Source of the DNA: a virus
Strand: one strand, 5' to 3'
IMG/VR virus record: IMGVR_UViG_3300029448_000220
Location: 1 to 31,661 of that record
Length of the DNA stretch: 31,661 bases
The position numbers were made by a program, and so were the translations under genes. The notes beneath the pieces are model-generated. The model was not told the DNA's origin, made no database searches, and saw nothing but the letters and a program-made list of their open reading frames with translations. Positions 859 through 26,807 of this stretch are shown here, piece after piece. Positions within the stretch are counted from its first letter, which is position 1. Each line of letters opens with the position of its first letter.

Positions 859-1442
859 CTGCCCACAATCATGTATCTAGTGTAAGCGTCAGTGGGTAAT
901 TCTTGTTGATCAATTATTTTTAAGTTGATGCTGTCTGCGAATTCATCTAAACTGTTCTTACAATTTACATGATCGGGCCTTGAAAAATAATTGTTGCTTT
1001 GTAAAACAACAACTGTGTTAGGTTGTTTGCGAGAAATAAACTCATTGATAGTTTTATCTGACACGTGTTCGCATGACGTAGAAACAATCACATCATATTT
1101 GTTTGGATTAAAATTTTCTATGGTGTTCCATTCAAAGTCAATTTTGTTGTTAGGATACATCTGATGTCCAATGTTACTGCATTGTTTGTCTCTATCAAAT
1201 GATGTCAATTTTGTTATTCTTGATGCATACTTTTGTCTCAATTTGTATGCAAGTAAACCATACCAACCTGCGGCAATGCACACTGTGAACTTGTCTTTGA
1301 GTCCAATGTAATCTTCTGTTTGTTCAACCAACCAATCTTTGCAAGCATGTTGCCTAGCGTTTTCTGAATTAATAATTGATTTAACAACACCATCGGTGGT
1401 AATATTTTCAATGACGTTTAGTAAATTATCAGACATAATCAT
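855..1442 (-). CDS. Class I SAM-dependent methyltransferase-like protein
   Basis: The protein has 195 residues from this ATG. After an N-terminal helical stretch, residues 52-62 (FTVCIAAGWYG) look like the first strand and glycine-containing SAM loop of a Rossmann methyltransferase. SFDRD at 81-85 fits the acidic end of strand 2, and YDVIVSTSCEHVSD at 116-129 fits strand 4 with its active-site loop. The length suits a compact single-domain enzyme; the substrate is unknown. It is first of a two-gene leftward operon and overlaps the next gene by four bases. The start is uncertain: the late-promoter-like motif at 1446-1453 ends only three bases before this ATG. By T4 spacing transcription would begin near base 1440, so the ATG at 1436 (MSDNLLNV) may be the true start. 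Its place in a glycosyltransferase cassette suggests sugar or surface modification (inference). Confidence 0.7.
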   Translation of the reverse strand: MIMSDNLLNVIENITTDGVVKSIINSENARQHACKDWLVEQTEDYIGLKDKFTVCIAAGWYGLLAYKLRQKYASRITKLTSFDRDKQCSNIGHQMYPNNKIDFEWNTIENFNPNKYDVIVSTSCEHVSDKTINEFISRKQPNTVVVLQSNNYFSRPDHVNCKNSLDEFADSINLKIIDQQELPTDAYTRYMIVGR

Positions 1443-1445
1443 GCA

Positions 1446-1453
1446 TACTTATG
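1446..1453 (-). promoter_or_regulatory. Late-promoter-like element CATAAGTA, leftward
   Basis: Read on the minus strand this is CATAAGTA followed by T, one mismatch in the TAAATA core and one in the flank against the T4 late consensus TATAAATA. It forms one arm of an 8-base inverted repeat (ATACTTAT at 1445-1452, ATAAGTAT at 1460-1467) with a 7-base spacer. It should serve the methyltransferase and the partial gene after it. Confidence 0.5.
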
Positions 1454-1458
1454 GGGTC

Positions 1459-1466
1459 TATAAGTA
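1459..1466 (+). promoter_or_regulatory. Late-promoter-like element TATAAGTA, rightward
   Basis: TATAAGTA differs from the T4 late consensus TATAAATA at one base. It ends 8 bases before the ATG at 1475, and no Shine-Dalgarno sequence lies between. With T4 spacing the predicted transcript would have a leader of about 3 bases. It is the only candidate promoter for the five-gene rightward operon up to 5644. Confidence 0.55.
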
Positions 1467-1474
1467 TCATATAA

Positions 1475-2350
1475 ATGAAAAGAGTGATATACAGTTTATA
1501 CATTGATATTCCTAGTGACCAATTAGATAATCAAAATCCATATTTTTGGGACTCTATATCTAAATCAGAACGCACAAAAATAAGTCTCAAAGAAAATTAT
1601 GATAGACTATTGTCTGTGAAACAACAATATAGTAAACAAATTGATGTCGATTTCAAAATGTTTGAATACGACCAAGCATATCAAGAATATGAACAGTATT
1701 TTGCAAAGCATTATCCAGATATGTCGTCATACAATGTAGTCAACTTTTATAAAATACATTTGCTTTATCAATTAGCACAAGAATACGATGAAATATTGTA
1801 TCTAGATTTTGATGTAGTTCCAACCAGCAAAATATCCTTTTTTGACACATGGGATCTCAGTAAAGGAATATGTTTGTTAGAAAACAACAACGATGTCAAC
1901 AAACGCAAGTTATCTATTTTTGATATTAATCATTCTGTCAGAAGTCCCACAGCAAAATTTTACAATGCACAAGCCATGTTACATGAAGAAGGCATGAGTG
2001 GTGACAATGATGTGATAAACACAGGAATAGTAGGCGTGAGCAGAGCACATCTGGAACAACTGCAATATTTCAGTGACTTTGAATATGTGTTAAACATGAT
2101 GCGTACATTACAGCAGGAAGATAATGACACAATCTATCCTCCTAATATTGTAAAAATGTTTGGTTACGACAACGAAACTGTGTGCAGTTACAAATTACGT
2201 ATGACTAATACTCCTGTGCAATGGTTAAATTCTGAGTGGCATTATTTTTATGACACTGAAATGCACATACCTACTGATACAAAATTGCTACATGCAATCA
2301 ATAAAAAATTTGATTTTGTTTGGAGATTCTATGAAAAATGTAATCTTTAG
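1475..2350 (+). CDS. GT-A fold glycosyltransferase, GT8-like (copy 1)
   Basis: The protein has 291 residues and begins MKRVIYSLYIDI, a typical first beta-strand for a GT-A sugar-nucleotide domain. The metal-binding DxD is D111-F-D113 in YLDFDVVP, preceded by YKIHLLYQLAQEYDEILYL as in GT8-type enzymes. A later N-T-G-I-V-G segment (about residue 190) fits the conserved acceptor-side asparagine region, and a WHYFYD segment lies near the C-terminus. Length is normal for the fold. No membrane segment is seen, so it probably acts in the cytoplasm. It is the first gene of the rightward operon, and its 3' end overlaps the next gene by 20 bases. The next gene is a clear paralogue (both open M-K-x-V-I-x-S-x-Y-I-D-I), so this looks like a tandem duplication. 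The sugar donor and acceptor cannot be told from sequence. Confidence 0.75.
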   Translation: MKRVIYSLYIDIPSDQLDNQNPYFWDSISKSERTKISLKENYDRLLSVKQQYSKQIDVDFKMFEYDQAYQEYEQYFAKHYPDMSSYNVVNFYKIHLLYQLAQEYDEILYLDFDVVPTSKISFFDTWDLSKGICLLENNNDVNKRKLSIFDINHSVRSPTAKFYNAQAMLHEEGMSGDNDVINTGIVGVSRAHLEQLQYFSDFEYVLNMMRTLQQEDNDTIYPPNIVKMFGYDNETVCSYKLRMTNTPVQWLNSEWHYFYDTEMHIPTDTKLLHAINKKFDFVWRFYEKCNL

Positions 2351-3254
2351 CATATACATTGATATAGAAGATGAGAGTTTAGAATCTTTGGAAGGTTATC
2401 TTGGCGACAACATGTCAAGATCACATAGGACTAAACAGCAACTGGCAAAATACAAACAAAAACTTGTTGAATGTAAACAAGAATACGCTGAATTTTGTGA
2501 AGCAGATTTTATCCTATATTCACATGATAATCAATATAAAAAATTTTTACAACACATGAACATACTTGACAACCAAGAGTTTGACAAAATTAATTTTTAT
2601 AAAATATATCTGATGGAACAACTGGCACAAAAATATGATAATGTGCTATATTTGGATCTTGATGTTGTGCCTCAAACAAAAACATCATTTTTCTCTGCAC
2701 ATGACATGGATAAATTTTGTGTTCATTGCATTCCAGCCACTAAAGAAAACACGTGGGGAGGATTTGCTAGTGGCAAAAACAAGCAGGCTAAATGTGAAGA
2801 ACATGATTGCATTTACACCTACGACCATATTGTAGAACAACATCTGGACCAGTATCATTGGTATATAAAAAAATTGTGCAAGGATGCAATGTTGATGCAT
2901 CACGGTTTGTCAGATCCTAATCACATGTTAGCTAACACCGCAATTATGGGTGGATCCAGCAATGCAATACAACAAATAAACTTTTTTGATAGATTGAATG
3001 AAATGTTAGACACATTCAATGAAGCAAAGAATGAACAAATAATGGGCGCGGCAATAACAGATAAATTTTTTATTAACAACGAAGTATTGATGACATATGC
3101 AATAATAAAATACAAATTAGACTGTTGCTATTTGCCTGCACAATGGCACTATGTTCAATTAGACATATACAATAATATGTGTAGCAAATCAGAAGCACAT
3201 TTATTGCATATTGTTGACAAACAGTTTGAAAAAATAGGAAAGTTAAATGTATAG
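2331..3254 (+). CDS. GT-A fold glycosyltransferase, GT8-like (copy 2)
   Basis: I place the start at 2331 (MKNVIFSIYIDIED), because that opening aligns with the start of the preceding paralogue and GGAG at 2322-2325 lies 5 bases upstream. An in-frame ATG at 2250 would only add residues shadowing the previous gene. The product is 307 residues. The DxD is D109-L-D111 in YLDLDVVP, after FYKIYLMEQLAQKYDNVLYL, and a later L-A-N-T-A-I-M-G segment matches N-T-G-I-V-G of copy 1. Both copies also share a W-H-Y segment near the C-terminus. Between DxD and the N-T segment it carries a longer Cys/His-rich stretch (HCIPATKENTWGG onward) than copy 1. The genes overlap by 20 bases upstream and 8 bases downstream, so translation is probably coupled. 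Substrates are unknown. Confidence 0.75.
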   Translation: MKNVIFSIYIDIEDESLESLEGYLGDNMSRSHRTKQQLAKYKQKLVECKQEYAEFCEADFILYSHDNQYKKFLQHMNILDNQEFDKINFYKIYLMEQLAQKYDNVLYLDLDVVPQTKTSFFSAHDMDKFCVHCIPATKENTWGGFASGKNKQAKCEEHDCIYTYDHIVEQHLDQYHWYIKKLCKDAMLMHHGLSDPNHMLANTAIMGGSSNAIQQINFFDRLNEMLDTFNEAKNEQIMGAAITDKFFINNEVLMTYAIIKYKLDCCYLPAQWHYVQLDIYNNMCSKSEAHLLHIVDKQFEKIGKLNV

Positions 3255-4299
3255 CACACAGAGATTACAGGTTTTTGTTGATCTTTCGACTTTATGCAAT
3301 GCTGGATGTCCACAATGTCATAGAACAAGTGTGAATGGATTGGGGAAACAAGATTGGTTACCAATGGTGCAATGGAGTTTGGAAGAATTTAAAACAGCAT
3401 TTCCTTCAAATATACTAAAAGAAAATGTTTCACAACTTAGCATTTGTGGCACCTGGGGCGATCCTGTGATGAACAAAGACATCAAGGAGATCATCACATA
3501 TGTTGTGGAAGAAAATCCAAATATTTCAATTAACCTTGACACTAATGGATCTATCAGAGACGAACAATGGTGGTGGGAACTTGGAATGTTGGCGGGCAAA
3601 AGTCTTAGAGTAATTTTTGCTGTGGATGGCATTGATCAAATAATGCACCAAAAATATAGAAGATTTACAAACCTAGAAAAAGTATTGGCCAATATGAGAG
3701 CCATAAGCGAGACCAAAACAAATGTGGAGGGACAGACCATATTATTCAAGCACAACCAAGATTATGTCAAACAAATTAAACAGTTGTGCATCGACAACGG
3801 TGCCACTGTTTATAGAGTAACACAGTCTGATAGATTCGATAATGAAGACTCTACAGAAGGCAAGTATTTTCATTTTACAAATGAGCACGGACAAAAAGAA
3901 AGTTTAGAAATAACAGACTATGAGCCACCTAATTCATTTGTGGCTCATACAAATCAAAACACTTTAGACAAAAAAATTGTTTGTCGTTGGCAAAAAGTAA
4001 ATCGTGTGCTGGTCAACATCGACGGCCAAGTGCTTCCGTGTTGTTATCTAGTCAATACATATTACAAAAATAAATTTGCAATGCACAACAAAAAATTTAG
4101 TAATCATCCTGTAATGCAAGCCTACAATGATAATGACAACAACATATTCAAAAGCTCTTTGCTAGAAATAATTCAACACAGCAAATGGTTCAACAAAACC
4201 TTGCCTAATAGCTGGAACACAGATAATCCTGTCAAACAGTGTGCAAAACAGTGTAGCACAATGACTAAAACCAAGCATCAATTGAAAGCATATCTATGA
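3247..4299 (+). CDS. Radical SAM protein with C-terminal SPASM-like cysteines
   Basis: The protein has 350 residues. C17-N-A-G-C21-P-Q-C24 is the CxxxCxxC motif that binds the SAM-cleaving [4Fe-4S] cluster. LSICGTWGDPVMNKDI (about residues 64-79) takes the place of the usual GGEP motif region, and INLDTNG follows as the next strand. The C-terminal part has C246, then C265-C266 within GQVLPCCYL, then C332 and C336, spaced like a SPASM/twitch auxiliary cluster region. SPASM radical SAM enzymes usually modify peptides or proteins, or act in cofactor or sugar chemistry; no peptide precursor gene is visible nearby. The start is supported by AGGA at 3236-3239, 7 bases before the ATG. The gene overlaps the upstream GT by 8 bases and the downstream GT by 4. 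It lies in the middle of four GT-like genes, which suggests that its product belongs to the same modification pathway. Confidence 0.85.
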   Translation: MYSTQRLQVFVDLSTLCNAGCPQCHRTSVNGLGKQDWLPMVQWSLEEFKTAFPSNILKENVSQLSICGTWGDPVMNKDIKEIITYVVEENPNISINLDTNGSIRDEQWWWELGMLAGKSLRVIFAVDGIDQIMHQKYRRFTNLEKVLANMRAISETKTNVEGQTILFKHNQDYVKQIKQLCIDNGATVYRVTQSDRFDNEDSTEGKYFHFTNEHGQKESLEITDYEPPNSFVAHTNQNTLDKKIVCRWQKVNRVLVNIDGQVLPCCYLVNTYYKNKFAMHNKKFSNHPVMQAYNDNDNNIFKSSLLEIIQHSKWFNKTLPNSWNTDNPVKQCAKQCSTMTKTKHQLKAYL

Positions 4300-5051
4300 T
4301 AAAAATTTGCACAGTATACTTTCAAGGCATGTATTCGCCACAGTATGTTACCAATCTTTATCGCAGTTTGAAAAAACATTCCACAGTTGACTTCGAATTT
4401 ATTTGTCTTAGTGATACAGATGACATTGAAGCAGATCTAATTTTGCCTTACAATCATCACACCTACATCAAGTTGCATTGGCACAAGTTAAAATACTTCA
4501 GTGAACTATTTGCAAACCAACAGCCAGGAGATGATATAATTGTAATGGACATTGACCAACTGATTGTGTCTAATATCGATAACTTGTTAAAATATCCTGT
4601 GCAGGATGGCCAATTAGTGTCATATAACAAATGGTGGGACACCAATCCTAAGCCTCCAGTAAGCATCAATGGAGGATTTTACAAGTTTAAATCTGGATCT
4701 TTAAATTGTGTATGGAACAAATTTATCGAAGATCCAGAATACTGGCAGTTACATTATTACAGTCAAAATGTTGTGCATCACAAATATTATGGTGAACAAA
4801 ACTTTGTTGAATTTGTGTGCAAAGATAACGGTGTTGACATACTGCATGTGCCAGGCGAATGGGTTGGAAAATATACTAATAATAGCACAACCAATAGAAA
4901 ATTAAACCTCATGTATGCAGAAAAATTTGAACAAGACTACATGGTGCTAGACGGGCCTAATGAAAACATAAAGATTTTGCATTTTGCTAATCCTGATTCA
5001 ACTATCCACGATTGTTCTGAAGACTGGATCAAGGAGTATTGGCTGATATGA
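4296..5051 (+). CDS. GT-A fold glycosyltransferase, GT8-like (copy 3)
   Basis: The protein has 251 residues and opens MIKICTVYFQGMYSPQYVTN, with a YVTNLYRSLKKH helix as in GT8 proteins. VDFEFICLSD follows as the second strand. The DxD is D85-I-D87 in IIVMDIDQLIV. S-I-N-G-G-F-Y (about residue 125) matches the N-x-G/S-I/F segment seen in the other copies. ILHFANPDSTIHDC near the C-terminus fits the HF/HxxG-like metal- and phosphate-binding end of these enzymes. The ATG overlaps the stop of the radical SAM gene as ATGA, and its own stop overlaps the next ATG in the same way, so it sits in a tightly coupled chain. Product and acceptor are unknown. The family call is fairly safe; the exact CAZy family is not. 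Confidence 0.75.
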   Translation: MIKICTVYFQGMYSPQYVTNLYRSLKKHSTVDFEFICLSDTDDIEADLILPYNHHTYIKLHWHKLKYFSELFANQQPGDDIIVMDIDQLIVSNIDNLLKYPVQDGQLVSYNKWWDTNPKPPVSINGGFYKFKSGSLNCVWNKFIEDPEYWQLHYYSQNVVHHKYYGEQNFVEFVCKDNGVDILHVPGEWVGKYTNNSTTNRKLNLMYAEKFEQDYMVLDGPNENIKILHFANPDSTIHDCSEDWIKEYWLI

Positions 5052-5644
5052 GAATAATATGTGTAAACACTGGAAAAAAATATAATCAATGGCACACTGA
5101 TAATCTTAAACATATGATTGATACATACTCAGGAATCGAATATGATGAGTTTGTTTGTATGGACACTGATCTTTATGATGGAGTGTTTAATAAGTTAATA
5201 ATCTTTGATCGATTCCGTGATGGTCAAAACATATTCTTTGATCTTGATGTTGTGATTTACAACAAACTGCCCGACCTCACAGCAAAAGACTTAACTTTAG
5301 TTCATTGCTGGTGGCGAGATGCTTGGCATACTCCATTGAATTCTTCTATAATGAGTTGGACCGGAGACTGTTCACATGTGTATCAAAAATTTTTACAGCA
5401 GGAAGACTACTATCTATTAAAATATAACAAAGGCATTGATGAATTTGTATACAAAGAAATAGAATATAAAACATTCGATCATGTGTGCTACACCATACAA
5501 GGAAATGAATACGCCCCTAAAGATCCAAAATACAGCATGTGTCTGTTAAACCAAAGACAGTTTTTGATGGAGCCAGGTTGGCAAGGCTGGTGGAAAAATT
5601 ATTTTATATCAGATATGGCTTTAACAACATCTAAGGGTGATTGA
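5048..5644 (+). CDS. Short GT-A-like protein with DxD (copy 4)
   Basis: The protein has 198 residues and starts MRIICVNTGKKYNQWHTDNL. I chose the ATG at 5048 because it makes an ATGA overlap with the preceding stop and has AGGAG at 5032-5036; a TTG at 5039 is only two bases from that AGGAG and is less likely. IFFDLDVVIY contains the DxD D65-L-D67, and P-L-N-S-S-I-M (about residue 100) aligns with the N-x-x-I/F segment of the other copies. It is shorter than usual for GT8, so it may be a reduced enzyme, a partner subunit or a decayed copy. Its last 46 bases overlap the oppositely oriented gene at 5599-6093. It is the last gene of the rightward operon, and no terminator hairpin was seen after it. 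Confidence 0.65.
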   Translation: MRIICVNTGKKYNQWHTDNLKHMIDTYSGIEYDEFVCMDTDLYDGVFNKLIIFDRFRDGQNIFFDLDVVIYNKLPDLTAKDLTLVHCWWRDAWHTPLNSSIMSWTGDCSHVYQKFLQQEDYYLLKYNKGIDEFVYKEIEYKTFDHVCYTIQGNEYAPKDPKYSMCLLNQRQFLMEPGWQGWWKNYFISDMALTTSKGD

Positions 5645-8906: not shown

Positions 8907-8912
8907 ATCGTA

Positions 8913-8960: not shown

Positions 8961-8967
8961 TATGCAC

Positions 8968-18900: not shown

Positions 18901-21900
18901 AACCTGCTGTTTGCACAGTGGATGAAGGAATAATATAGTTTGTAACATCTTGCCTGTAAAGACCGTTGTATACCCACTGTCCAATGTTGTTTTTGTTGGA
19001 GCGTGATGTATCAAACCAAATGCCGGCATACTTGCTTGGTTTGGCTAAAAATTTTGCAACTTGCTCTGCAAATAGATAAGAAGAAGATCTACGCCAAGCT
19101 GATTCTGCTGGTGCATAATCTCCATAGTTCCAATTTTTTTGATGATCAGCATCTACCACATATCCTGTGTTCAAAAAACCTGCTTCCATTGGACTTAATA
19201 GATTGCCACTGTCGTCAATTGGCAAAATATCTATTACATTAGGTTTAGCATATTTTGTATAGTAGCCTTTTCGTGATCCTTGTGCAATAAAACCAGATGC
19301 TACATCATCCCATAATAATAAGTTTCCTTTTGTGTAAGGACTAGCACCATATCTTGTGTCCCACCAATCAGGCTTGATTGTAAAATCAAATATCTCCCAC
19401 GGATGTGTATGTGGTTGATCTGTATTAAAAAACTGCTTGTATATGCCACGCCAATATCCTGGCAGTGCAGAATTGTCTAGTCTATTGATATAAGAACTAA
19501 AATTCCATGTTAAGTCGTTTGTTGCTGAATAGGTGTCATTGGTACTGTAGTCTACTGCAAAAGTGCCTGACCAACTAAAAAAGTCTTTGGCAAAAAGATC
19601 AAGCACCTCTTGTGCTGTGTATTCATTCGACTTGTAATATCCATAGTCAATGTCAATTGTTTCATCCAGATAAGATGTCTTGATATTGTTGTAAATTCTC
19701 TTTTCAAATTCCAATAATATATTGTCACGATAATCGCCATAAGCAATTGTGATCGCACCATCATGTCCTCTAATCACATCAGTGCTTGGTTGATATGTGT
19801 CATCTGTGTATTTGGATGGTTGGTATGCTGGAGCCAGTCCTAATTTTGTAGGAGTTGCTGGAATAAAGTTGCTGTCTGTGGAATCATATTCAACAATCTG
19901 TAATATATCATTAGGAGCCAGTGTTGTTTTGACTTCAATCCCGTCTTGATTAGACGAATCATCTGTTGCTGTAAATTCGTAATCTAAGCCATGCACTAAC
20001 TGGACATCATTGAGATAAACGTAGATTGCTTTTTTAGATAAAGTTGTTAAGTTGTGGGCAAACGAAATAGGATAGTTGATTACTTCATCATCTATCACAG
20101 TGTATTTGGTTATGGATTTTGTGTTGCCTGCACCCAACATGTCCGAATCAAAAAACGGCATGGTATTGGTTTTATTTTGATTGATCAACTCTAAGACATT
20201 GTCTAAATTTTGCTGAACTGTGAAGTCTGATGACACTTCATTCAATCTTTCAATAATATTTTGTTTTACTTTTTCGTATTCTTTGCCTGCAAATCTCATT
20301 GCTTTGGCAAGGTTCAAAACTTTGTCTTTGACTAATATATGTGCCAAAGGATCATTACCTGAGTGTTGCATCATGAGTGATGAATGTCCAAACACGTTTG
20401 ATAAATCACGTGAGTTGTTTGGACCATTTGCTGTGCCTACAAAGTCTGTCATGTCGTTGACACCTAATCTGTAGTGTTTGACCATATCACCTAGTGTAAA
20501 TTGTGTAACATTTTTGTTTTGTGCATTTCTTTGCAACGACACTGGCACTTCAAAAAATCCAAATCCGGATGGAGTGCCAACAGATGAATGTGCTTTTACT
20601 GTGATGACATCATCAGTGAGCATCACATCATTTGTTTTAACGTATATTTTTGTGTTGATATTTTCTAGCACATAGTCAGTATACATGTCGCCATTTTTTA
20701 AAACTTGCACTGTTAAATCTGTTAATGTTTGTGGATTTTTGTAATGATCGACTTCGAAGTAGTGTTGGTTAGTATTGTTTTCATACACTTTGATAATTTT
20801 TTGATTTGCCACCACAGCATATTTTTTCCAGTTGTTTGTGACAATTGCGACTGTGGAGCCTTTTTTGTATAGATTAAAATGATACTGCCTTATACTTCTT
20901 TCAACAATATTGCCTGCATCCACAAATTGCACTTTGTCACTGTTAAATGTGTCCTGTAATCTAATATCATTGATCAGTCCAAGCCTTTCATATATCACAT
21001 TGGTTCCATAAACAGTATCCGGTGTGCCTTGCGTATCAGTAGCAACTTCGAACAAAGTTGATCCAGTAAAGTTTGTGGAAGGATATGTAGTAAGATTGCC
21101 TAAAGATACTTGATCAGCGTCAAACACGTCAAATTTTGGTTTTTGATTAACTTTTGTTTTTTGCTGTGATTTTGTCCATAAACCGTTTTCCACATGATAA
21201 GTGACACCTTTGTTAGATCCTTTTCTTGACACCACAGATAACATTTCTTGTGCTGTCAATGTTTCACTTAGAACCAATTGAATTACAGTTGTGCTGTCTA
21301 ATTCGTTGGCTACTTGCACAAAATCAACAGTAAAAATTTTCCGTTGTTGTTCTTGATCTGCTGTGAAAATAATTGTGTCTCCCTTTTTGAGTTCGGCAGT
21401 GTCAGCAAAATATCCTGCTTGACCTTGAACATTTGACAAAGCATCTGTGGTTGTAGTATCAATTACATCAACTAGTCTTCCATTGTTGCCGTGATTAAAC
21501 AATTCAATGTTAGGCAAAAATTCAACAATTGGTCTTTTGGCTCTGATGTCTTCTGTCAAAGTAATTGTTGAATCAAAATGTGTTTCTGTTAATTTTATTG
21601 CATCAATGTGTGTCCAACGATTTGCTCTTGACCATGCATTCAAATCTTGTGAAGATCTATTAATTGTAAAATAATCAAGTACCTTGCTTTCGGACACAGA
21701 ATTATCGAACCCTGTTGTGTCAAATCCAACAACGCCATTTTCGTCCCATACTTCTCCAGTTTCTGTGCCATATGATTCAACCACTTCATGGCTAACAATA
21801 TCAGTCAGTGAGATGCTTTCGCCTACTCCATCAACAAAATATTTTTTATTGATGTAAGACGATGTCACACCTGTGTTGATTTGGATATTCACAGTATCTG

Positions 21901-22765
21901 TCAGAGTAAGTCCATTTGCATCTGTAAATTTTAAAGATCCTTCAATTGCTTCACTTGGATCAAAGTCAACCAAGTCTAAATCTTTTACAATGATTCTGCC
22001 TTTCATGTTTACATGATTGCCACATTGATAGAACAACACTGTATCAATGTTGGAAGAAGAATCATTGCTAGGAACTTTTAAAGTTACAATGCCGTCCATT
22101 GCACCGTTGTTGGTCACATGTTCATCTGACACTTGATCACTTGAGCCGGTGCCATATTGTGTTTTGATGTAAAAAGGATGGCCTGGTGCATTGATTGAAA
22201 ATTCATATGTGCTGCCTTTGTAAACTATTATGTCTGGATTGTCCTGATCAATTTTGTTTGAAAACACATATGCTCCAAGTGCATTGTTTACAACACTAAT
22301 CCTTGAAGTGGTGCCAGGGCCAACATCCAATATGATTGGGGACAAGTTTTTTGACATCCAATAATACTGTCTATAGTTTACAAGTTTGTCAGGATCTACT
22401 GGAGGAGCATATGAATAAGATTCTTGTTCCCAAAGTCTATCATGCTTTTCATTACTGCCGCCTTGTGCTTTTATTTCATTTACTGCGTCGATATACTGAC
22501 TAGCAAAGTCAATGTTGGAACCATCTGTCTTGTATGTCACTGTTGGTTCAAGTTGATAACTTTGACGTTGTAGAGAACTTTCTTCTAAATATATGTCTGT
22601 GGTTCGATATGATGGCTTATATCTCTGTCCAATGTATGCACTAAGCCTATCTAACACAGATGGTTCGATCAATTGATCGATGGTTGAATTAATAAATCTT
22701 TTGTTCTTTTCTGTTTGAAAAATTTGTGGTAAAAGTTGTGAAGAAGATCTAGTAGATTTGCTCAT
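9950..22765 (-). CDS. Giant multidomain virion protein (4271 aa) after gp6
   Basis: One uninterrupted minus-strand frame encodes 4271 residues. The position directly after gp6 is that of gp7/gp8 and the fibre-attachment proteins in T4, so it is probably a baseplate-peripheral or fibre protein. No catalytic motif was found. Residues 1-140 (LLPQIFQTEKNKRFINSTID, YAPPVDPDKLVNYRQYYW) form a distinctive head that I recall from other large marine phage structural proteins. Residues ~1415-1465, 1675-1713 and 3410-3448 resemble carbohydrate-binding modules. Residues ~2095-2650 are a seven-repeat FG-GAP propeller. Residues ~3312-3380 are a Gly-rich double repeat, and ~3610-4235 hold several GDGST/GDAST beta-sandwich repeats. 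FIGTERIAYF near 4110 is a motif common in baseplate proteins. The start is firm: TAATG overlap with gp6 and GGAGG 9 bases upstream. Dominance of Thr, Asn, Asp and Ser with few Cys fits an extracellular assembly. Confidence 0.85.
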   Translation of the reverse strand: MSKSTRSSSQLLPQIFQTEKNKRFINSTIDQLIEPSVLDRLSAYIGQRYKPSYRTTDIYLEESSLQRQSYQLEPTVTYKTDGSNIDFASQYIDAVNEIKAQGGSNEKHDRLWEQESYSYAPPVDPDKLVNYRQYYWMSKNLSPIILDVGPGTTSRISVVNNALGAYVFSNKIDQDNPDIIVYKGSTYEFSINAPGHPFYIKTQYGTGSSDQVSDEHVTNNGAMDGIVTLKVPSNDSSSNIDTVLFYQCGNHVNMKGRIIVKDLDLVDFDPSEAIEGSLKFTDANGLTLTDTVNIQINTGVTSSYINKKYFVDGVGESISLTDIVSHEVVESYGTETGEVWDENGVVGFDTTGFDNSVSESKVLDYFTINRSSQDLNAWSRANRWTHIDAIKLTETHFDSTITLTEDIRAKRPIVEFLPNIELFNHGNNGRLVDVIDTTTTDALSNVQGQAGYFADTAELKKGDTIIFTADQEQQRKIFTVDFVQVANELDSTTVIQLVLSETLTAQEMLSVVSRKGSNKGVTYHVENGLWTKSQQKTKVNQKPKFDVFDADQVSLGNLTTYPSTNFTGSTLFEVATDTQGTPDTVYGTNVIYERLGLINDIRLQDTFNSDKVQFVDAGNIVERSIRQYHFNLYKKGSTVAIVTNNWKKYAVVANQKIIKVYENNTNQHYFEVDHYKNPQTLTDLTVQVLKNGDMYTDYVLENINTKIYVKTNDVMLTDDVITVKAHSSVGTPSGFGFFEVPVSLQRNAQNKNVTQFTLGDMVKHYRLGVNDMTDFVGTANGPNNSRDLSNVFGHSSLMMQHSGNDPLAHILVKDKVLNLAKAMRFAGKEYEKVKQNIIERLNEVSSDFTVQQNLDNVLELINQNKTNTMPFFDSDMLGAGNTKSITKYTVIDDEVINYPISFAHNLTTLSKKAIYVYLNDVQLVHGLDYEFTATDDSSNQDGIEVKTTLAPNDILQIVEYDSTDSNFIPATPTKLGLAPAYQPSKYTDDTYQPSTDVIRGHDGAITIAYGDYRDNILLEFEKRIYNNIKTSYLDETIDIDYGYYKSNEYTAQEVLDLFAKDFFSWSGTFAVDYSTNDTYSATNDLTWNFSSYINRLDNSALPGYWRGIYKQFFNTDQPHTHPWEIFDFTIKPDWWDTRYGASPYTKGNLLLWDDVASGFIAQGSRKGYYTKYAKPNVIDILPIDDSGNLLSPMEAGFLNTGYVVDADHQKNWNYGDYAPAESAWRRSSSYLFAEQVAKFLAKPSKYAGIWFDTSRSNKNNIGQWVYNGLYRQDVTNYIIPSSTVQTAGYINAISDYIKHLGYTANTYISDKFNNIAVQLSYKLGGFTNKDNLQVAVGSVSPQSTSQGVFLPRENFNILIYKSAPVVTAHYSGVIVQKTGTGFKVSGYSNFDRTFKYYKPKQFSNSSTIRIGATTESFTEWQAGGFYNKGVIVRNESVFYRSLNTITSGQNFDATNWSEIGATLPLKGGVSVKKYKNYEPTITTVPYGQQFNTAQDTADFLFGYAQHLEIEGFVFDDFVNELQQPANWDLSVKEFLFWTTQGWNTDSVITLSPSAQSLTFQKENTIGDDLTDTDQFYSVLQQDGLPINPNNFTTNRQDGVFRLVTNPTEDGIYNADIRAVQKEHLVVFDNISQFSDVIFDDITGNRQDRIKLVGFRTANWNGDLYAPGYVLDQAKILDWTPFTDYRIGENVVHQGKYYAVTINHTSGETFERKFYQYKEEAPEKQMLPNWDAKAEAFRDFYSLDSDNFDSEQQRYAQHLIAYQPRQYMNNLGLEELTQFKFYQGMLKEKGTIGPINKFKSQPQSDQDVSYDLFEEYAFRVGEYGGHRTQQAFAFVVPESKHLRDRLVYKVSEDNLDDTETVININQQSDELLLKPYAFDGSINQTIDYNQHQNTIDSIFQLPSAGYVLPNQVNYTVFDESELLNLDATQLKEGQTVWVANTPTGDWDVKRFNSVNTSTEAYKQFDDVLQITTKEPHGLNENDYVAIFDVNDSIDGVYQVLTADSTDDDRSFTVAFSGTVDSTNLQGTIGKFGSVRINKMDDINTILPTKDFAIGDYVYVDNDYKKQYPDNGLWKVYQKSQSTEYSISDETLIEEEQASGEMGSAIAVDDSNLYLASTAPGVNKTFVYIRNSTADSFYLRNSILLDIGNSDADDRFGHSIAMVSDGGRVFAGSPQTADIVKLTLSATFRAYTRGTTVIGSESGATGKILDVDWDNDIIWVKNTAATNFQSEPLDVGDSSSTISVTKVEGSDATSQGAVHWINRDARSSYGITQTIVAPNVDKGGEFGSAVAVSGDGTYLVIGAPGGPDDSTAADRGTVYVYKYAKDGSSTRYDLHQTLVPTANSQLGSRFGEQVEISNDGKTIIISSPKQDNDSTTNDGGRVYVFRLKNDVFYEHESLTANLIDDIQFGTSLAISSDGTDVLVGAPLYSGAVRKQGGVFHFTKNTFTAIGDGSTTQFDVGFTVDHNEFIGVFVGNDNYAHNDGNDSSTTNFYRVDGSTNSVTLSSAPASGSTVVITQYTLTDTITVRSSHVNQQFGKNVTVKDNNMMAQSIFGDAKLSTTFDRLATDGSTVLSETTFDAGTTSFVDVQNDSGQVHVFNKINLKFIAVQNIRPSQTLPSGADYGSAIAFSKLNAYIGASGLDGSLSGSGRFFIFKKITDSLGWETIATQPSLVDVNKIEKAFLYDTSTNRIVNQMPIIDPIKGKLFAEVRKNINFEIAFDPAEYDSWDEDHLGEIWLDISTFKYFWYEQGSDDDKLNNWAKLHPSSDVQVKEWISSSLTPTQYNAVSNTNEGQSQNITGTANNTFVTKRVYDENKSRFVNKYFYWVSNSTSLGNNNTLSALEIANSLTNPTLFSNNFAGFVSKDSIILNLNRNQLAQNSIALQFENTTDSEPIHKHTEHVLIAKDDANSAIPQSLTDKFFDSLIGFDKFGRTVPDVNQPPSLRYGTLNRPRQSWYPDRIGALKIIVQFVNDQLKTQAYATTKDLSLFNKIDPLPSLKLGEYDKEVDTDTDLTYVNTNEISIGYKILVIADTNVDNGWAVYQWTGDIWDRTLQQTYDTKKYWSFADWYAEGYSINTVADHLVTDERTRLNGNYSKGDIVKVKQSYGGEFRLYLKTSSSFETVGIENGTLELSTSLFDYSANQIGFGADAYGADLYDAEAVTELRNILDAVKNFAIDEDAILYNKLFFIGVRIAQLQNKNLDWAFKTSFVKAINTYSNLQQLREFQIDTADAVNDFFREVLPFKTTVREDVTSYLNKDTVAGDFTDFDNRTYYNKDTATYETPNINPSQTDLPSIYDTYPWKEYANNFKLTVGSIVVDRQGDGYTEVPTVTITGGGGTGAKAVATIGNGKITEIKVTNAGTGYVSIPTVSITGGGGASIQTTALAHAELVNNKVRSVDTTIKFDRLNSLRETQSNTIVEWSKYTSYTAGQNVRYLDKIYRVHEPFTSGDKFGDNVLLPDSSSATSQHPLVEWSATDRIHAYYDPSAGMAGLIGDGSTTNNAYAQLMTGIEYPGVRVQALTFSESSGYDIIGYDNTEYDTNVSLAEATDPVNLDQVLDSKSFTTSLGTRAEDINVVGDDFISEYSAHGPEEVLPGGVYDTLDLKVYTRQTDSASNIFKKRYSGDGSTVVFTTPELTNTDGLRVYVNNIFKIQGTDYTVNFATNKITFTTAPSNNDIIEISVIEVSTNSLLGRFEFTGDASTVDFATTVNSDLITQTYVLVNGVKTTTTKVLNEDSVTALIRFSSAPVDGAKIEVYLFDLPVGTKAFSEVVTTQYTDIPTDSSRFEIQIDPVSLVTGPYHHKVIVEGVAGSNGTNRYRLDPPQIAYYEGDASTTSFIIPTEPVSSALANITDTEVFKNGIKLTPGEDFTIGSNALGNTAAVLSVTPAVGDVIAVIYLSGHDYTLDGNGKLVLQSGWNDDSSIDAETIFVTTFSNHDTQSLRTELFSGSTGDVTTLTVDRGLITASPTTTEDFGDLDTGDQFNQDLGFTSGNILADDIDAKKYELSKTPLNSSFVFVTVNKQYLTANIDYVLEGNQLFLPQRSLGLSDVVTVTYISGTIQKNPIAYRVFKDIINRYHYKRISSAHSTVLKAELSKDATEILVEDATVLGTPNTDINTPGVIFIGTERIAYFEKDGNTLKRLYRGTFGTAVQTHALKSKIVDASGLQSMPYEDTTATTTFTGDGTTVSFALSYLPSAKEDIVVTIGGAKSTAFSIGSDSTTAVILDSAPSVGVQVDIIRKTGLVWYDQGTTSASNGLGLQQATGVEIAFLQEKPADISLI
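12625..12830 (-). repeat. Glycine-rich double repeat inside giant gene
   Basis: Two copies about 110 bases apart encode G-Y-T-E-V-P-T-V-T-I-T-G-G-G-G-T-G-A and G-Y-V-S-I-P-T-V-S-I-T-G-G-G-G-A (about residues 3312-3380), joined by IGNGKITEIKVTNAGT. The unit is a known style of beta-repeat in phage and surface proteins. The high-glycine runs are also visible at the DNA level as GCC-rich blocks at 12651-12672 and 12763-12783 in an otherwise AT-rich gene. Confidence 0.75.
14815..16485 (-). repeat. Seven FG-GAP-like repeats (beta-propeller region) inside giant gene
   Basis: Seven segments match (F/Y/M)G-x-x-(I/V/L)-(A/E/T)-(I/V/M/F) followed by D/N-rich turn and G-A/S-P-like ends: GEMGSAIAV, DRFGHSIAM, GEFGSAVAV, SRFGEQVEI, IQFGTSLAI, QQFGKNVTV and ADYGSAIAF (residues ~2095-2650). 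Several are followed by a G-x-V-(Y/H/F)-(V/H)-F strand (GTVYVYKY, GRVYVFRL, GGVFHFTK, GQVHVFNK, GRFFIFKK). Seven is the blade number of integrin-alpha-type propellers. Two blades carry inserted domains, one a GDGST repeat. Confidence 0.75.
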
Positions 22766-25700
22766 TAGTAATAGCCTCCACTAGACGAACTTGAACTTGA
22801 ACTCGAACTCGGTGTTGTTGAACTGGTTGTTGTTGAACTCGATGTTGATGAACTTGCAGTCGCCACAGTGGTTGCTACTGTACCTGTTGCTGTAGTTGTG
22901 GCATCTGTTGAACTTGTCACAACTGCTCCGCTGGCTTTTAATTTCTCCGCAGAAATATTATTAATAATTTCTACATTATCGACTGTTGCGGATGATATGA
23001 ACAGTTCGTTGTCTTCTGCAAAAATTTGGAATAATGAACCAAATCCAGATGTAGACTGTGCTGGCACTATGACCACACTTAAAATATCTGGAGTCAATTG
23101 ATTATGAATGAAAGCTGCCAACTCTGTAAAATAAAAAGTGTCACCAAAATCCCAAAAATCAATTTGGAAAAAAGTATCAACTGCTCTTATTACATCTGAC
23201 TTTACTTTGTTGTCGCTGACAGAACTAGATGGGTTCTTGACAATTTTAAACTGTGCTTGTAAACTTGCATCGGATCCCGGGCCAAACAGTAATTTATACT
23301 CACCTGGATTGAAAATTATTTCATCACTCACAGACTTAACTTTATCCAATGATGACAAATATTGATCTTCTAAGTTGAAAATTGTAGGAGCAACAGGCCT
23401 AGTAGTTGCTTGGCTATTGGCTAGCCATGTTCTTAGTGCTGTGTTATAACTTTTTGTCATCACATAGATGTCTACAAGATTAGATACACCAGGATCAATT
23501 CTTCTTGATCTACTTGCACCGTGGTTGTAGTTATAAATTAAATCCTGTCTTCCTAACTTTGCTGTGTAGCCAGTCACACTACTGGTTGTGTCTGTGGCAG
23601 AGTCATATTGTAAAAAAGTATTAGTGTCATAAAAATAAAACAATTGGTTGTCAGTATACACTGAGAAATCAGTGATATCAGATAATTTTTCATTAACTAC
23701 AAAAGTTGTCTGGTCAACTACATTCAGTTGATCAAATCCTTCTACTGTTGCAGTTTGAAAAAACACATATTTGTCAGACAGGCTGGTGTCAGGTGCAACA
23801 ATGGTTGTAAACAGATCTGGATTATCAATTATTCCGTCATCGTCTGAATCAAAAAATCCTACTTTGATTTTCCTAGTGTCATTGTATCCATCATCGCCTG
23901 TGACATTGCCAACAATTGCCCAATCATAGTCATAAACTAAACTGCTAACAAAGTCAGGTCCAACATTGCTTTTAGTAATTCTAATCTTGTCTTTGATCGT
24001 AAAGCCAGTTTCAGGATCAACTATTTTGGCATTTGGATCAAAATAAAATTTATTTCTTGTTTTAGATTCAAATATGTATTCAGTAACCCTGTATGTCACT
24101 GTGTAACTTACTCCATTAGTGGTAAATTTTAACAACCATGAATTATCCTTGTTGGCTTCAGTGGTGTCACCTTGAAAAGATAAGTCAAATTCGCCTGAAC
24201 CTAAATTATCTGATGTAACCACATTCCATTTTTGATCATCAACATTGTATGACAAGCCAAAGTTTTTGTAGTCTGTAACATTGCTGATAATTGAATTTTT
24301 AAGTGTTTCATCTACAGAATCAACAAATGCAGGAATAATTTCTGTAAGCCTTGCATCAGTTGGCACTAGGTCATTTAAAATAATCGGGCCGGTGCCGTCT
24401 GCAAGATTGCCTGTGCCACCGTTTGATCCATCAAGCGTGATTGTTGAAGGCTTACACCAAATTACTCCAGCAGAGCCAGGATGGCCGCCAGCACCTGTCA
24501 TTTGTGTGCCTGACTTAGGCATAAAATGTGACCCTGCAGTGGGTTCAAATTTTAATAATGACCCTACTGTGGCATATTTTAAGTTATTGGTTGTGTTGGA
24601 TCCTACACTAGTTGCATCGCCATTGGCATCTTTAAAATATCCTGTGACTTGATTTGTGGTTTGTGTGGTTTTGTTCCATGTTGTTGTGGGGGCAGTTATT
24701 TTATCATAATTTTTGTAATAAAATTGTTTCAATGGATTAGCAGTTAACACATCTGTAAGACTTGTGTTGATCACTTTCTCAATGTCATCTGCTGTGGTAA
24801 ATTGAAAATCAAATGTTGACGTGCCTTCTTCTTGATACAGCAATCCATCATCTGCAACTATGTTGGTCTGCGAATACACACCAGTAGGATCAGTGATGTC
24901 TAAGAACCTTGATACTCCAGAAGAAGATCTTACTTGAGACTTAGCTTTGGCAATGGATTGATTCTCAGTGATAGGCAATATTTGATAATCTTCTGCAGTG
25001 ATCATTCTACCGTTTGTATAAAAAGATTGTGGTGCCTGTGTCTTGATATCTTGTATGGTTTGAGTTGATGAAGCATTGGTCACAGTTGATTGCAATGACG
25101 CATTCACTGTCAATGTATTTGTTTGTCCGCTTTTTGAAACATAATCAAGTTCAATGGAAATATTTTGCATGTCGCTAGTGCTGATGTTGTAAGTTAAATT
25201 GTTGCTTTGTCTAAAGTAACATCTAAAGTTTCCTTGTGGCAATGCTCCATACACGCCATCTGAAAACACTAGGTCAACTTGATCATTTGTTTTGGTTACC
25301 ACAGCAAATTGACGTGTGATATTATTGGCTAATTCATTGTAGATTATGTTGTTGCCAATAATGGCTGGCACTTTGTTCCATCTCTGTTCCAGCAAACCAT
25401 TCTGATCCAGTTTGTATAAAAATACATCTTCATTGTTAATATTGTTTTCTTGTATAGACACCACTGTGTTTGGCGCTGTGTTCTTAATTGCAAAATCTTT
25501 TGAATTTAATGTACCTTGTCTAAAATGGAAAAAATACCCAGTGTTGTTTGACCCAAATCCTTTGTTGTCATTTCTATACAACAGACTTAGTGAATTGCCA
25601 GACACTGGTGGTTCTTCGTAAATGTAAGATTCGTTTGCAAACGAACATGGAGTAATTTCGAACTGCATGTTAACTCCATTTATATTTTTTGTAAATGGCA

Positions 25701-26295
25701 CTATTGGTAAGCCAAGATTAGATCCATTTACTCTATACAATTGCGACTGTAATCCAGCAATTGTATCACTCATTTCAGGTTTGTTAACAAATTGACCTTT
25801 TGGCAAACTTGCATTCAACACAGCGTTGAATTGATCTTCCCAATTGTCATTTGTTAAATCATTCCAAAGTATTGCAGTGTTGGAAATATCTTGTCCGTTG
25901 GAATCAGAAACACTTTCAGTTGTAGCAATCGAAGTAATTTTTAAGAATCCAGATGCAGGCACATTTCTTTTGGGTTGATACGAAATCAATCGTGCAAGTC
26001 TAAGCACAGATTCTTTACGTTCAGCAAGGTCAATAAAATTTTCTCTTGCATTTAGATCAACTCTGTAAGAAATACTTTGTGCCACATATGATATCATATC
26101 AATAAGTGCAACGTATTCTGAAGATTCAATAAAGTCATTGAATGACTCTGGATAGTTCAATTGTAGATAATCAATCAGTGTGCGTCGAATGGTGTCAAAA
26201 TCATATGATTTGAAGTCTGCTTGTTGAAATGTACGATAAATTTTTTGCCACACTGTGTTGGCTAGTAAAGTGTTCTGTCGGGTGTTAGAAGCCAT
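22765..26295 (-). CDS. gp6: Baseplate wedge protein gp6
   Basis: The protein has 1176 residues, much longer than T4 gp6 (about 660). The N-terminal ~110 residues carry the family signature: FDTIRRTLIDYLQLNYPESF, FIESSEYVALIDMISYVAQS, then SYRVDLNARENFIDLAERKE and ISYQPKRNVPASG. In T4 gp6 dimers form the inner ring of the baseplate and join the wedges. NITRQFAVVTKTNDQVDLVF and a GVYGALPQGNF loop further on fit the gp6/gpJ-like core. A Gly-rich insert lies near residue 605 (TGAGGHPGSAG), and the part near 1010-1120 includes a SDVIRAVDTFFQIDFWDFGD segment close to a gp6 C-terminal domain. From about residue 1125 it ends in a disordered Ser/Thr tail. It has its own TAAATAT motif 6 bases before the ATG, and its stop overlaps the giant gene start. 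Confidence 0.93.
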   Translation of the reverse strand: MASNTRQNTLLANTVWQKIYRTFQQADFKSYDFDTIRRTLIDYLQLNYPESFNDFIESSEYVALIDMISYVAQSISYRVDLNARENFIDLAERKESVLRLARLISYQPKRNVPASGFLKITSIATTESVSDSNGQDISNTAILWNDLTNDNWEDQFNAVLNASLPKGQFVNKPEMSDTIAGLQSQLYRVNGSNLGLPIVPFTKNINGVNMQFEITPCSFANESYIYEEPPVSGNSLSLLYRNDNKGFGSNNTGYFFHFRQGTLNSKDFAIKNTAPNTVVSIQENNINNEDVFLYKLDQNGLLEQRWNKVPAIIGNNIIYNELANNITRQFAVVTKTNDQVDLVFSDGVYGALPQGNFRCYFRQSNNLTYNISTSDMQNISIELDYVSKSGQTNTLTVNASLQSTVTNASSTQTIQDIKTQAPQSFYTNGRMITAEDYQILPITENQSIAKAKSQVRSSSGVSRFLDITDPTGVYSQTNIVADDGLLYQEEGTSTFDFQFTTADDIEKVINTSLTDVLTANPLKQFYYKNYDKITAPTTTWNKTTQTTNQVTGYFKDANGDATSVGSNTTNNLKYATVGSLLKFEPTAGSHFMPKSGTQMTGAGGHPGSAGVIWCKPSTITLDGSNGGTGNLADGTGPIILNDLVPTDARLTEIIPAFVDSVDETLKNSIISNVTDYKNFGLSYNVDDQKWNVVTSDNLGSGEFDLSFQGDTTEANKDNSWLLKFTTNGVSYTVTYRVTEYIFESKTRNKFYFDPNAKIVDPETGFTIKDKIRITKSNVGPDFVSSLVYDYDWAIVGNVTGDDGYNDTRKIKVGFFDSDDDGIIDNPDLFTTIVAPDTSLSDKYVFFQTATVEGFDQLNVVDQTTFVVNEKLSDITDFSVYTDNQLFYFYDTNTFLQYDSATDTTSSVTGYTAKLGRQDLIYNYNHGASRSRRIDPGVSNLVDIYVMTKSYNTALRTWLANSQATTRPVAPTIFNLEDQYLSSLDKVKSVSDEIIFNPGEYKLLFGPGSDASLQAQFKIVKNPSSSVSDNKVKSDVIRAVDTFFQIDFWDFGDTFYFTELAAFIHNQLTPDILSVVIVPAQSTSGFGSLFQIFAEDNELFISSATVDNVEIINNISAEKLKASGAVVTSSTDATTTATGTVATTVATASSSTSSSTTTSSTTPSSSSSSSSSSGGYY
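22775..22779 (-). promoter_or_regulatory. Shine-Dalgarno GGAGG of giant gene, within gp6 codons
   Basis: GGAGG on the minus strand lies 9 bases before the ATG at 22765. It is formed by the Gly-Gly codons (GGA GGC) near the end of gp6, which terminates GGYY-stop. The stop and the start overlap as TAATG, so translation of the giant protein is probably coupled to that of gp6. Confidence 0.75.
22777..22915 (-). repeat. Ser/Thr low-complexity codon repeat at gp6 C-terminus
   Basis: The coding strand has AGTTCN repeats (four near-identical hexamers at about 22785-22811) preceded by ACA/ACT/GTT-rich triplets. It encodes about 45 residues of mostly Ser and Thr, ending in ten serines and GGYY. The pattern looks like slippage-driven expansion. 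Confidence 0.8.
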
Positions 26296-26301
26296 ATAGA
26301 A

Positions 26302-26309
26302 TATTTATT
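26302..26309 (-). promoter_or_regulatory. Late-promoter-like element AATAAATA before gp6
   Basis: On the minus strand the sequence reads GCAATAAATATTCTATATG. The core ends 6 bases before the gp6 ATG, in the 33-base gap after gp25. There is no Shine-Dalgarno between motif and start codon. Confidence 0.6.
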
Positions 26310-26328
26310 GCAAATAAAATGTGTGTAG

Positions 26329-26793
26329 TTAATAAGTTGATGATTGACTGGTGAATACTTGCCCTGGTCCAACTAATAATCCTTGATTTTGATCAAACAA
26401 AAGATTGATTGTTTCACCTATGGCATATCCTATATACAACACAGTCATTTTGACTGACAGTCCGTGATCAGACTCTTGAACTTCTATCTGGTCAAGTGTT
26501 ACTCTAGGATCATAGTTGACCACTGTTTCAACGTCTTCTATTACTAAATTTTTTGTTTCTTCATCTAATGGATCGAACACATAAAGCCATATGTTGGTGC
26601 CAAAGTCAGGATTTTCAAGTTTTTCGCCTTTGCGTATGTTGAAATGATTCAAAAGATCTTGTTTGACCAACTCAACATCATACAATTTAGGATCTTTGAA
26701 TTCTCGGCCTTGTGTGGAAAACCCTTTGAATATTTGTGAATTCACCGAAGTTTGTTTGGTGTTTTTGCTATCTGAAAAATTTACAACTGCCAT
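26329..26793 (-). CDS. gp25: Baseplate wedge protein gp25
   Basis: The protein has 154 residues, close to T4 gp25 (about 130). The family core is clear: VKQDLLNHFNIRKGEKLENP (43-62) followed by DFGTNIWLYVFDPLDE (63-78), where R-x-G-E/K-x-x-x-x-P-x-F-G is the diagnostic motif. DVETVVNYDPRVTLDQIEVQ, and a C-terminal beta-pair with LSVKMTVLYIGYAI, follow. In T4 gp25 joins gp6 and gp53 in the wedge core and helps to start sheath assembly. The N-terminal 35 residues (MAVVNFSDSKNTKQTSVNSQ) extend beyond the usual start. The promoter-like motif TAAATAT lies 6 bases upstream, partly inside the PAAR stop codon, and no Shine-Dalgarno is seen. Order PAAR-gp25-gp6 fits the baseplate operon. Confidence 0.93.
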   Translation of the reverse strand: MAVVNFSDSKNTKQTSVNSQIFKGFSTQGREFKDPKLYDVELVKQDLLNHFNIRKGEKLENPDFGTNIWLYVFDPLDEETKNLVIEDVETVVNYDPRVTLDQIEVQESDHGLSVKMTVLYIGYAIGETINLLFDQNQGLLVGPGQVFTSQSSTY

Positions 26794-26799
26794 TTGTTA

Positions 26800-26807
26800 T
26801 ATTTAAC
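26800..26807 (-). promoter_or_regulatory. Late-promoter-like element GTTAAATA before gp25
   Basis: On the minus strand the sequence is GGTTAAATATAACAAATG. The TAA stop codon of the PAAR gene (26803-26805) lies inside the motif, and the core ends 6 bases before the gp25 ATG. Compare the identical TAAATATAACAAATGGC at the S74 fibre gene. Confidence 0.6.

Follow-up and report, generated by a model that had tools for sequence, protein, structure and literature searches.

The window, which is the entire IMG/VR record IMGVR_UViG_3300029448_000220 (31,661 bases, a fragment of a T4-superfamily phage), raises the question of what a late-promoter-like motif, TAARTAT, does immediately ahead of the start codons of its genes. 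Profile matches from Pfam and PHROG identify gp25, gp6, a PAAR protein, a gp5-like protein and tail fibres of the S74 and Mtd_N types. TAARTAT has eight exact matches on the two strands, where dinucleotide shuffles give an expectation of 14.4; seven of the eight are sense-oriented and lie 3-9 nucleotides (nt) ahead of an ATG, and the eighth (TAAATAT at 22586, + strand) is antisense within a 4271-aa open reading frame (ORF). We consider it likely, with a probability of roughly 0.8, that these motifs are gp55-type late promoters which abut the start codon and leave some of the late genes with leaders of about 0-4 nt.

Five of these starts carry the 6-bp core TAAATA. On the minus strand it stands 6 nt from the ATG of gp6 (core 26302-26307, ATG 26295; ORF 22765-26295, 1176 aa), of gp25 (core 26800-26805, ATG 26793; ORF 26329-26793, a GPW_gp25 Pfam match), of p217, a 217-aa protein of unknown function (phrog_11259; core 8913-8918, ATG 8906; ORF 8253-8906), and of the S74-chaperone tail fibre (core 8241-8246, ATG 8234; ORF 7044-8234, a Peptidase_S74 Pfam match); on the plus strand it stands 7 nt from the ATG of the Mtd_N-type tail fibre (core 8955-8960, ATG 8968; ORF 8968-9936). 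The other two sites have the variant core TAAGTA: at 1446-1451 on the minus strand, 3 nt from the ATG at 1442 and 9 nt from the ATG at 1436 of ORF 855-1442, and at 1461-1466 on the plus strand, 8 nt from the ATG of ORF 1475-2350. All seven sites lie at the distances given in the first-pass annotation (6, 6, 6, 6, 7, 8, and 3 or 9 nt); its labels for the two variant-bearing ORFs, 'GT' (1475, +) and 'methyltransferase' (1442, -), find no confirmation, as neither has a Pfam or PHROG match at E 0.001.

The T4 late box serves as a -10 element, lying about one helical turn before the transcript start with its first base at -13 (PMC2988020), so that the 8-bp box ends at -6. TAAATA, and perhaps TAAGTA too, would correspondingly be a -10-type late promoter, read by a gp55-family sigma factor on the host RNA polymerase, and by the T4 rule the transcript would begin 5-6 nt past the core, 0-4 nt before the AUG. 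The predicted leaders are 1 nt for gp6 (+1 at 26296), gp25 (+1 at 26794), p217 and the S74 fibre, 2 nt for the fibre at 8968, 3 nt for the ORF at 1475 and 4 nt for the ORF at 1436; in this last case +1 would fall at 1440, within the ATG at 1442, so that 1436 would be the start. The Mtd_N fibre has two in-frame ATGs (8962 and 8968), of which the predicted +1 at 8966 would select the second. A promoter abutting the start codon would set transcript start and start codon together, and translation would start from an AUG at or almost at the 5' end of the message, while most internal genes of the same transcription units keep Shine-Dalgarno (SD) sites.

The distribution of the core in the window is far from random. 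TAAATA is seen 6 times, against 30.2 expected from dinucleotide shuffles or 37 from a third-order Markov model, and five of the six are at starts; its sister words TAAATT, TAAAAT and TAATAA are undepleted. When the 60-nt upstreams of the 19 automatically called starts are shuffled, sites at 3-9 nt number 0.19 on average and 2 at most, and the six observed are reached in none of 1000 shuffles (the count is six, not seven, because the caller takes the first in-frame ATG of the fibre, which has the motif at 1 nt). SD words (AGGA, GGAG, GAGG or AAGG at -17 to -5) are found at none of the seven motif genes, as had been claimed, and at 8 of the 12 other starts; the accompanying claim that internal genes have them is thus true of most, not of all. 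The S74 fibre does have an AGGAG 15 nt ahead of its ATG, outside the usual SD range. Internal-gene controls are provided by the PAAR gene upstream of gp25 (26803-27060, minus strand), with the SD sequence AAGGAG, and the 4271-aa ORF downstream of gp6 (9950-22765, minus strand), with GGAGG at its start, both without the motif.

As the window is already the whole record, the enrichment of the motif near starts was examined on viral contigs of relatives, of which 33 were found by gp25 and more by gp6 and S74 (contigs G016-G020, found via S74, entered the pattern and gp55 searches only). Unless a GenBank annotation is named, starts were called by an ORF caller of our own, which takes the first ATG in the longest ORF; starts near contig ends and contexts more than 70% identical were removed (75% for the count of start codons and flanking bases, 60% for SAR11 16S loci), and related sequences were counted after removal of near-identical contexts only. 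The enrichment is sharp at 5-8 nt. In an unbiased count, the top pair of 6-mer and offset of all is TAAATA at 6 nt, in 34 of 255 non-redundant clade contexts; measured against shuffles, it is found in 29 of 207 (shuffle mean 0.27, maximum 3). Among 84 distinct motif matches, 53 have a start in range, 40 of them at 5-8 nt. TAAATA or TAAGTA at 3-10 nt precedes 60 of the 255 starts and occurs in 16 of 92 protein families, the larger of which are those of gp25, p217 and gp6, a mixed fibre family and two of unknown function; ten of the 16 have a single motif-bearing member, and chance matches among these are possible. Starts near the motif have SD words (-18 to -5) in 6 of 38 cases, motif-less starts in 65 of 161.

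The spacing is conserved gene by gene. Distinct orthologue upstreams carry the motif in 22 of 22 cases for gp6 (21 at 6 nt, one at 5), 27 of 28 for gp25 (24 at 6 nt, two at 5, one at 8, and one upstream without it), 7 of 7 for p217 (six at 6 nt, one at 5) and 10 of 10 for the Mtd_N fibre (nine at 7 nt, one at 6). Across orthologues the sequence of the spacer varies while its length is nearly constant, and the two bases preceding the core are unconserved in the clade. A misplaced gp6 start codon is rejected: in the five jumbo phages fetched, of 64 matched, tblastn aligns the protein from residue 1, which is the annotated start of the coding sequence (CDS).

Leadered T4-like phages offer the contrast. 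With one ORF caller for all phages and counting TAAATA within 53 nt of starts, the core is found at 4-9 nt and at 20-45 nt, respectively, in 1 and 21 of 34 cases in T4, 0 and 26 of 34 in RaK2, 1 and 24 of 30 in Munch, 0 and 22 of 24 in Syn9, 2 and 39 of 56 in P-SSM2, 2 and 22 of 36 in PA5oct, 5 and 32 of 51 in SCTP-2, and 0 and 25 of 33 in Atu_ph07, as against 13 and 5 of 30 in HTVC008M, to which we return below. T4, Syn9 and HTVC008M were analysed whole, the others in part (RaK2 120 of 346 kb, Munch 100 of 350, P-SSM2 240 of 252, PA5oct 160 of 287, SCTP-2 160 of 440, Atu_ph07 160 of 490). By gp6, the nearest isolates include RaK2-like jumbo phages; where RaK2 and Munch were analysed, most motifs stand 24-51 nt ahead of the start (30/34 and 27/30), with an SD site, and in the cyanophages Syn9 and P-SSM2, which have the same core, they are most often at 20-28 nt (17/24 and 29/56). 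Genes with the motif at 17-45 nt have an SD word in 21 of 23 cases in T4, 22 of 25 in RaK2 and 20 of 24 in Munch, and less often in the cyanophages (Syn9 9/21, P-SSM2 7/39). Related viruses usually retain some 15 to 40 nt of leader at these positions: in Munch gp6, TAAATA is followed by 30 nt containing GAGG and then the ATG, whereas the window's gp6 reads TAAATATTCTAT-ATG, with the core at 6 nt. For gp4, the distance from core to ATG is 26 nt in T4 (with AAGGAG), 24 in Syn9 and 25 in P-SSM2, and 5 in HTVC008M. In the gp4 leaders of T4 and Syn9 there is also a reverse core (TATTTA) downstream of the forward one, which would make the two opposed promoters overlap; HTVC008M has the cores in the reverse order, and its promoters would point apart.

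HTVC008M, an isolate on Pelagibacter, belongs to a second lineage with close placement, the pelagimyophages. Its top pair of 6-mer and offset is TAAATA at 5 nt (11 starts), and all 13 of its sites at 4-8 nt precede GenBank CDS starts, including those of gp2, gp4, gp48, gp25, gp13 and gp3; misplaced start codons are rejected here on the same count. The motif also stands before genes for an oxygenase, a CsgF-like (curli-type) protein and a cyclase. Genome-wide, TAAATAN{5,8}ATG has 25 matches (14 for the reversed pattern), 16 of them at annotated starts. On 59 contigs related by gp48 (at least 41% identity) the core is at 4-9 nt in 36 of 172 contexts and at 18-45 nt in 4, and in the pooled pelagimyophages TAAATA at 5 nt precedes 35 of 393 starts (shuffle mean 0.69, maximum 4). 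SD words (-18 to -5) are found at 3 of 48 starts near the motif, and at 176 of 334 motif-less ones.

HTVC008M is listed in Kyanoviridae alongside leadered cyanophages, so that close placement is present in two lineages, the window's clade and the pelagimyophages, and it would seem to have arisen twice. Leader and SD site would be missing at a set of late genes in both, apparently separately, and the leaders would have been lost rather than never gained. That at least two T4-superfamily lineages, a jumbo-like marine clade and the SAR11 pelagimyophages, each shed the leaders at a number of late genes and joined a gp55-type promoter directly to the start codon, yielding leaderless mRNAs and starts down to 12-13 bp apart, we hold to be somewhat more probable than its opposite.

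Gene orientation points the same way. With the fibre start set by hand to 8968, the motif is found at 4 of 4 divergent and 3 of 15 codirectional starts in the window; for TAARTA at 3-9 nt the figures are 14 of 31 versus 28 of 168 in the clade and 27 of 66 versus 26 of 313 in the pelagimyophages. The divergent starts of p217 (8906, minus) and the Mtd_N fibre (8968, plus) are separated by 61 bp (8907-8967) with two putative late promoters pointing apart, and L060, L092, L100 and L104 (same as L089) likewise have both motifs in a gap of 60 or 61 bp. In HTVC008M and 10 relatives, gp2 and gp4 are head to head, with starts 25-35 bp apart and a core of its own for each (identity of the pair checked in 10/10). 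In two further contigs, L246 (5783-5795) and L251 (4176-4187), the starts of the head-to-head genes gp4 and gp48 are separated by a mere 13 and 12 bp (identity checked in 2/2), with TAAATA on one strand of the gap and TAAGTA on the opposite strand; to judge by its sequence, this gap would be nearly one shared two-way promoter.

The two TAAGTAT copies of the window (1446-1466) likewise form an inverted repeat in the 32-bp gap between divergent starts, and one symmetrical element may serve both flanking genes. The evidence for this pair is weaker than for the TAAATA sites, no orthologue upstream having been found among the relatives' loci examined. TAAGTA is, in turn, below expectation in all 12 of the clade and S74-linked contigs counted, and not in RaK2, Munch, PA5oct or T4, a scarcity that lends indirect support to its being read in the clade. 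That of TAAATA looks as though stray late promoters were avoided; it is clear in T4 (225 versus 392 expected), RaK2, Munch, P-SSM2 and the window's clade, Syn9 having 132 versus 132.

The leaderless reading is strengthened by four of these observations taken together: the fixed spacing with a changing spacer, the lack of SD sites, the head-to-head starts 12-35 bp apart in pelagimyophages and the contrast with leadered orthologues. The late-promoter and leaderless proposal of the first-pass annotation is accordingly favoured by both of its proposed checks that were run on relatives' contigs, the motif being enriched near starts and gp55 homologues being present, and by spacing, SD lack and leadered contrasts, albeit as a reading of sequence; its 'class of late genes' is to be narrowed to some late genes, as HTVC008M gp23 and tail sheath have SD sites and no motif within 48 nt, so that only some late genes would be built with an abutting promoter. 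Similarly, of the seven starts that it takes as able to begin a transcript, only four are forced to do so (1442-, 1475+, 8906-, 8968+), as gp25, gp6 and S74 each closely follow a same-strand gene (gaps of 9, 33 and 18 nt).

The presumed sigma factor is encoded by relatives: gp55 homologues occur on 6 of 16 of their contigs (E 1e-67 to 1e-77), which are themselves fragments. HTVC008M encodes gp55, gp33 and gp45, and the searches detect gp33 and gp45 of T4 likewise; RaK2 and Munch have no T4-type gp33 or gp45 matches either.

A number of results, beginning with gp23 and sheath, weigh against abutting late promoters or are at best neutral. On the side of the sigma factor and its co-activators, gp55 is not found in the 31.7-kb window fragment nor on 10 of the 16 fragmentary relatives' contigs, T4-type gp33 not on 10 of 11 (with one marginal match, G014, E 0.005), and gp45 on none of the 11. 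The full T4 octamer TATAAATA does not occur in the window, and read-through from the preceding gene could give gp25, gp6 and S74 a leader. Conservation is incomplete for S74, where only 9 of 20 distinct upstreams (orthologues and paralogues) have the motif at 6 nt, two have it at 10-11 nt and nine lack it; some S74 matches at 57-68% identity are also without it, and the S74-linked contigs G013-G015 are more mixed (24/37 at 4-10 nt). The preference for divergent starts is marginal in the clade for TAAATA alone (10/31 versus 28/168 codirectional, p 0.05) and is not significant in the window with automatically called starts (3/5 versus 3/14, p 0.26).

Among pelagimyophages, the gp25-based set has the core at 4-9 nt in only 6 of 97 contexts (none at 18-45), and the more distant sets are mixed, with 9 near and 17 far of 120 by gp48 (32-35% identity) and 11 near and 7 far of 79 by gp25 (53-59% identity). 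Of nine HTVC008M genes compared, gp4 alone contrasts cleanly across all four phages, TAAATA being absent from the 48 nt upstream of most of the other orthologues compared in T4 and the cyanophages. TAAATA depletion is not specific to the clade, being shared by T4, RaK2, Munch and P-SSM2, though not by Syn9. Among isolated phages, TAAATATN{3,9}ATG versus its reverse gives 52 v 44 in SCTP-2, 31 v 29 in PA5oct, 10 v 10 in Munch, 19 v 32 in Atu_ph07, 15 v 31 in RaK2 and 9 v 12 in T4, and the excess of TAAATAN{5,8}ATG in HTVC008M stands beside 12 v 9 in Syn9 and 18 v 18 in P-SSM2. In SAR11 genomes TAAATATN{3,9}ATG also exceeds its reverse (161 v 99, 174 v 106, 131 v 87), which may reflect AT composition. 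Finally, leaderless genes in the host itself are not indicated: 80 of the 120 SAR11 loci near 16S and 400 kb of one SAR11 genome (the stretch L476-L495) have no -10-like signal 6 nt from the starts of their own genes, and scarcely any excess of SD words.

These points bear on what else the motif might be. It could be a real late promoter acting as a booster, with translation proceeding mainly from longer read-through transcripts by SD-independent initiation on an AT-rich, unstructured region. The 9-33 nt separating gp25, gp6 and S74 from a same-strand gene would suit this, as would the codirectional motif starts of the clade, where the gap is below 30 nt in 17 of 28; SD-free initiation moreover seems usual in such hosts, since SD words in the Pelagibacter stretch (L476-L495) are found at 41 of 360 starts, compared to 27 in a control window. 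(The SAR11 genome seems hardly to use SD sites, whereas the motif-less genes of its phages often do.) Yet the motif is commoner at divergent starts, where a read-through transcript must cross an opposite-strand gene, start-to-start gaps of 12-35 bp are too short for leaders, and read-through would not require the near-constant spacing at each gene; we regard this explanation as unlikely. Considerably less likely still is that TAAATA near the ATG is a translation signal, a non-SD ribosome site, rather than a promoter. Its nearly fixed distance to the ATG and the SD sites mostly missing where it is present would agree with such a role, and so would the start codons, which are ATG in 68 of 68 motif-bearing cases in the clade and 95 of 96 in the pelagimyophages, a weak test as the codon pool includes false starts. 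However, in T4, RaK2 and Munch this hexamer is mostly found 20-45 nt ahead of the start, with an SD site in between; its depletion elsewhere, on either strand, is what a promoter would show; 12 of the window's 19 starts do without it, 8 of these having an SD word; and it is more frequent at divergent starts.

The motif could also be the -10 box of the main host sigma factor, in which case the mRNAs would be leaderless either way. TAAATAT does resemble -10 boxes, and -10-like signals about 10-12 bp before starts have been used to predict leaderless genes (PMC3160421); but the conserved carriers are structural (gp6, gp25, fibres), even if the oxygenase, curli-type and cyclase genes of HTVC008M are not, gp55 homologues are present on relatives' contigs, and most of these phages are depleted in TAAATA, the SAR11 stretch hardly so (1148 observed versus 1271 expected), so that we give a host promoter very little credence. 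What can be set aside almost completely is chance or gene packing, that is, an AT-rich spacer combined with an upstream stop codon TAA overlapping the next start. The TAA of the gp25 core does double as the stop codon of the PAAR gene, and 27 of 55 motif contexts have a TAA that could terminate a preceding frame open for about 45 nt; but orthologue upstreams keep the motif despite different spacers, and none of the 1000 shuffles matches the count in the window. Chance is rejected by these shuffles together with the 6 TAAATA observed versus 30-37 expected, and stop-codon overlap as the only cause by the 18 of 28 contexts in which TAA is unable to close a frame and the motif is still at 6 nt.

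Late promoters of this type are already known, and their abutment to start codons would be the new aspect of a late-promoter reading. The window resembles T4 (gp55/gp33/gp45; Geiduschek and Kassavetis 2010, PMC2988020) in the TAAATA -10-type core, its place ahead of structural genes and a gp55-family sigma factor, the latter on relatives' contigs; it differs in that T4 late genes have a leader with an SD site, TAAATA being at 20-45 nt in 21/34 and at 4-9 nt in 1/34, whereas in the window's clade it is at 5-8 nt without SD, and in that T4 has gp33 and gp45, of which the fragmentary contigs of the clade yield only the marginal gp33 match. For the jumbo phages CBB and GAP32, the relevant account describes the putative late promoter ATAAATA, the same motif ahead of structural genes, and a gp55-like sigma factor without gp33 and gp45 (PMC5259590). 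In cyanophages, the late promoter is given as NATAAATA and gp55, gp33 and gp45 are reported in all (PMC2984593); late promoters are also listed for phage Melnitz (PMC9004378). The late promoters of the phiKZ non-virion RNA polymerase have TATG at the transcript start, an ATG-like overlap resembling the sites in the window, but involve a multisubunit phage polymerase and another motif, and their ATGs are not necessarily start codons (PMC7598289). The prediction of leaderless genes in bacteria follows the same reasoning, in that a -10 signal some 10-12 bp ahead of the start implies the lack of a leader (Zheng et al. 2011, PMC3160421); those genes are cellular and depend on sigma-70, where here they are phage late genes with a presumed gp55-type sigma factor. 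No report of late promoters abutting start codons was found in the open-access literature, subscription journals lying largely outside the search. In a survey of pelagimyophages (PMP), prediction of middle and late promoters is described as 'unsuccessful in PMP genomes' (PMC7029224), a failure that promoters placed right at the start codon might help to explain.

If the late-promoter reading is right, a 6-bp element fixes transcription start and start codon alike, and initiation from a 5' AUG could bias ribosomes toward late phage messages. A leaderless set of late genes would be an unusual mode of late expression, testable in the cultured pair HTVC008M and Pelagibacter HTCC1062; it would also offer a simple check on start-codon calls in such phages, and leadered cyanophages and apparently leaderless pelagimyophages would form a natural comparison for the drivers of leader loss.

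Among the minor features of the window, the Mtd_N domain (Pfam PF18454), which is N-terminal in the fibre at 8968-9936, is that of major tropism determinants. The ORF starting at 1475 opens a plus-strand cassette (1475-5644) around a radical SAM gene; the ORFs starting at 1475, 4296 and 5048 have no Pfam match, while Glyco_transf_8 is found in 2331-3254 and Radical_SAM in 3247-4299.

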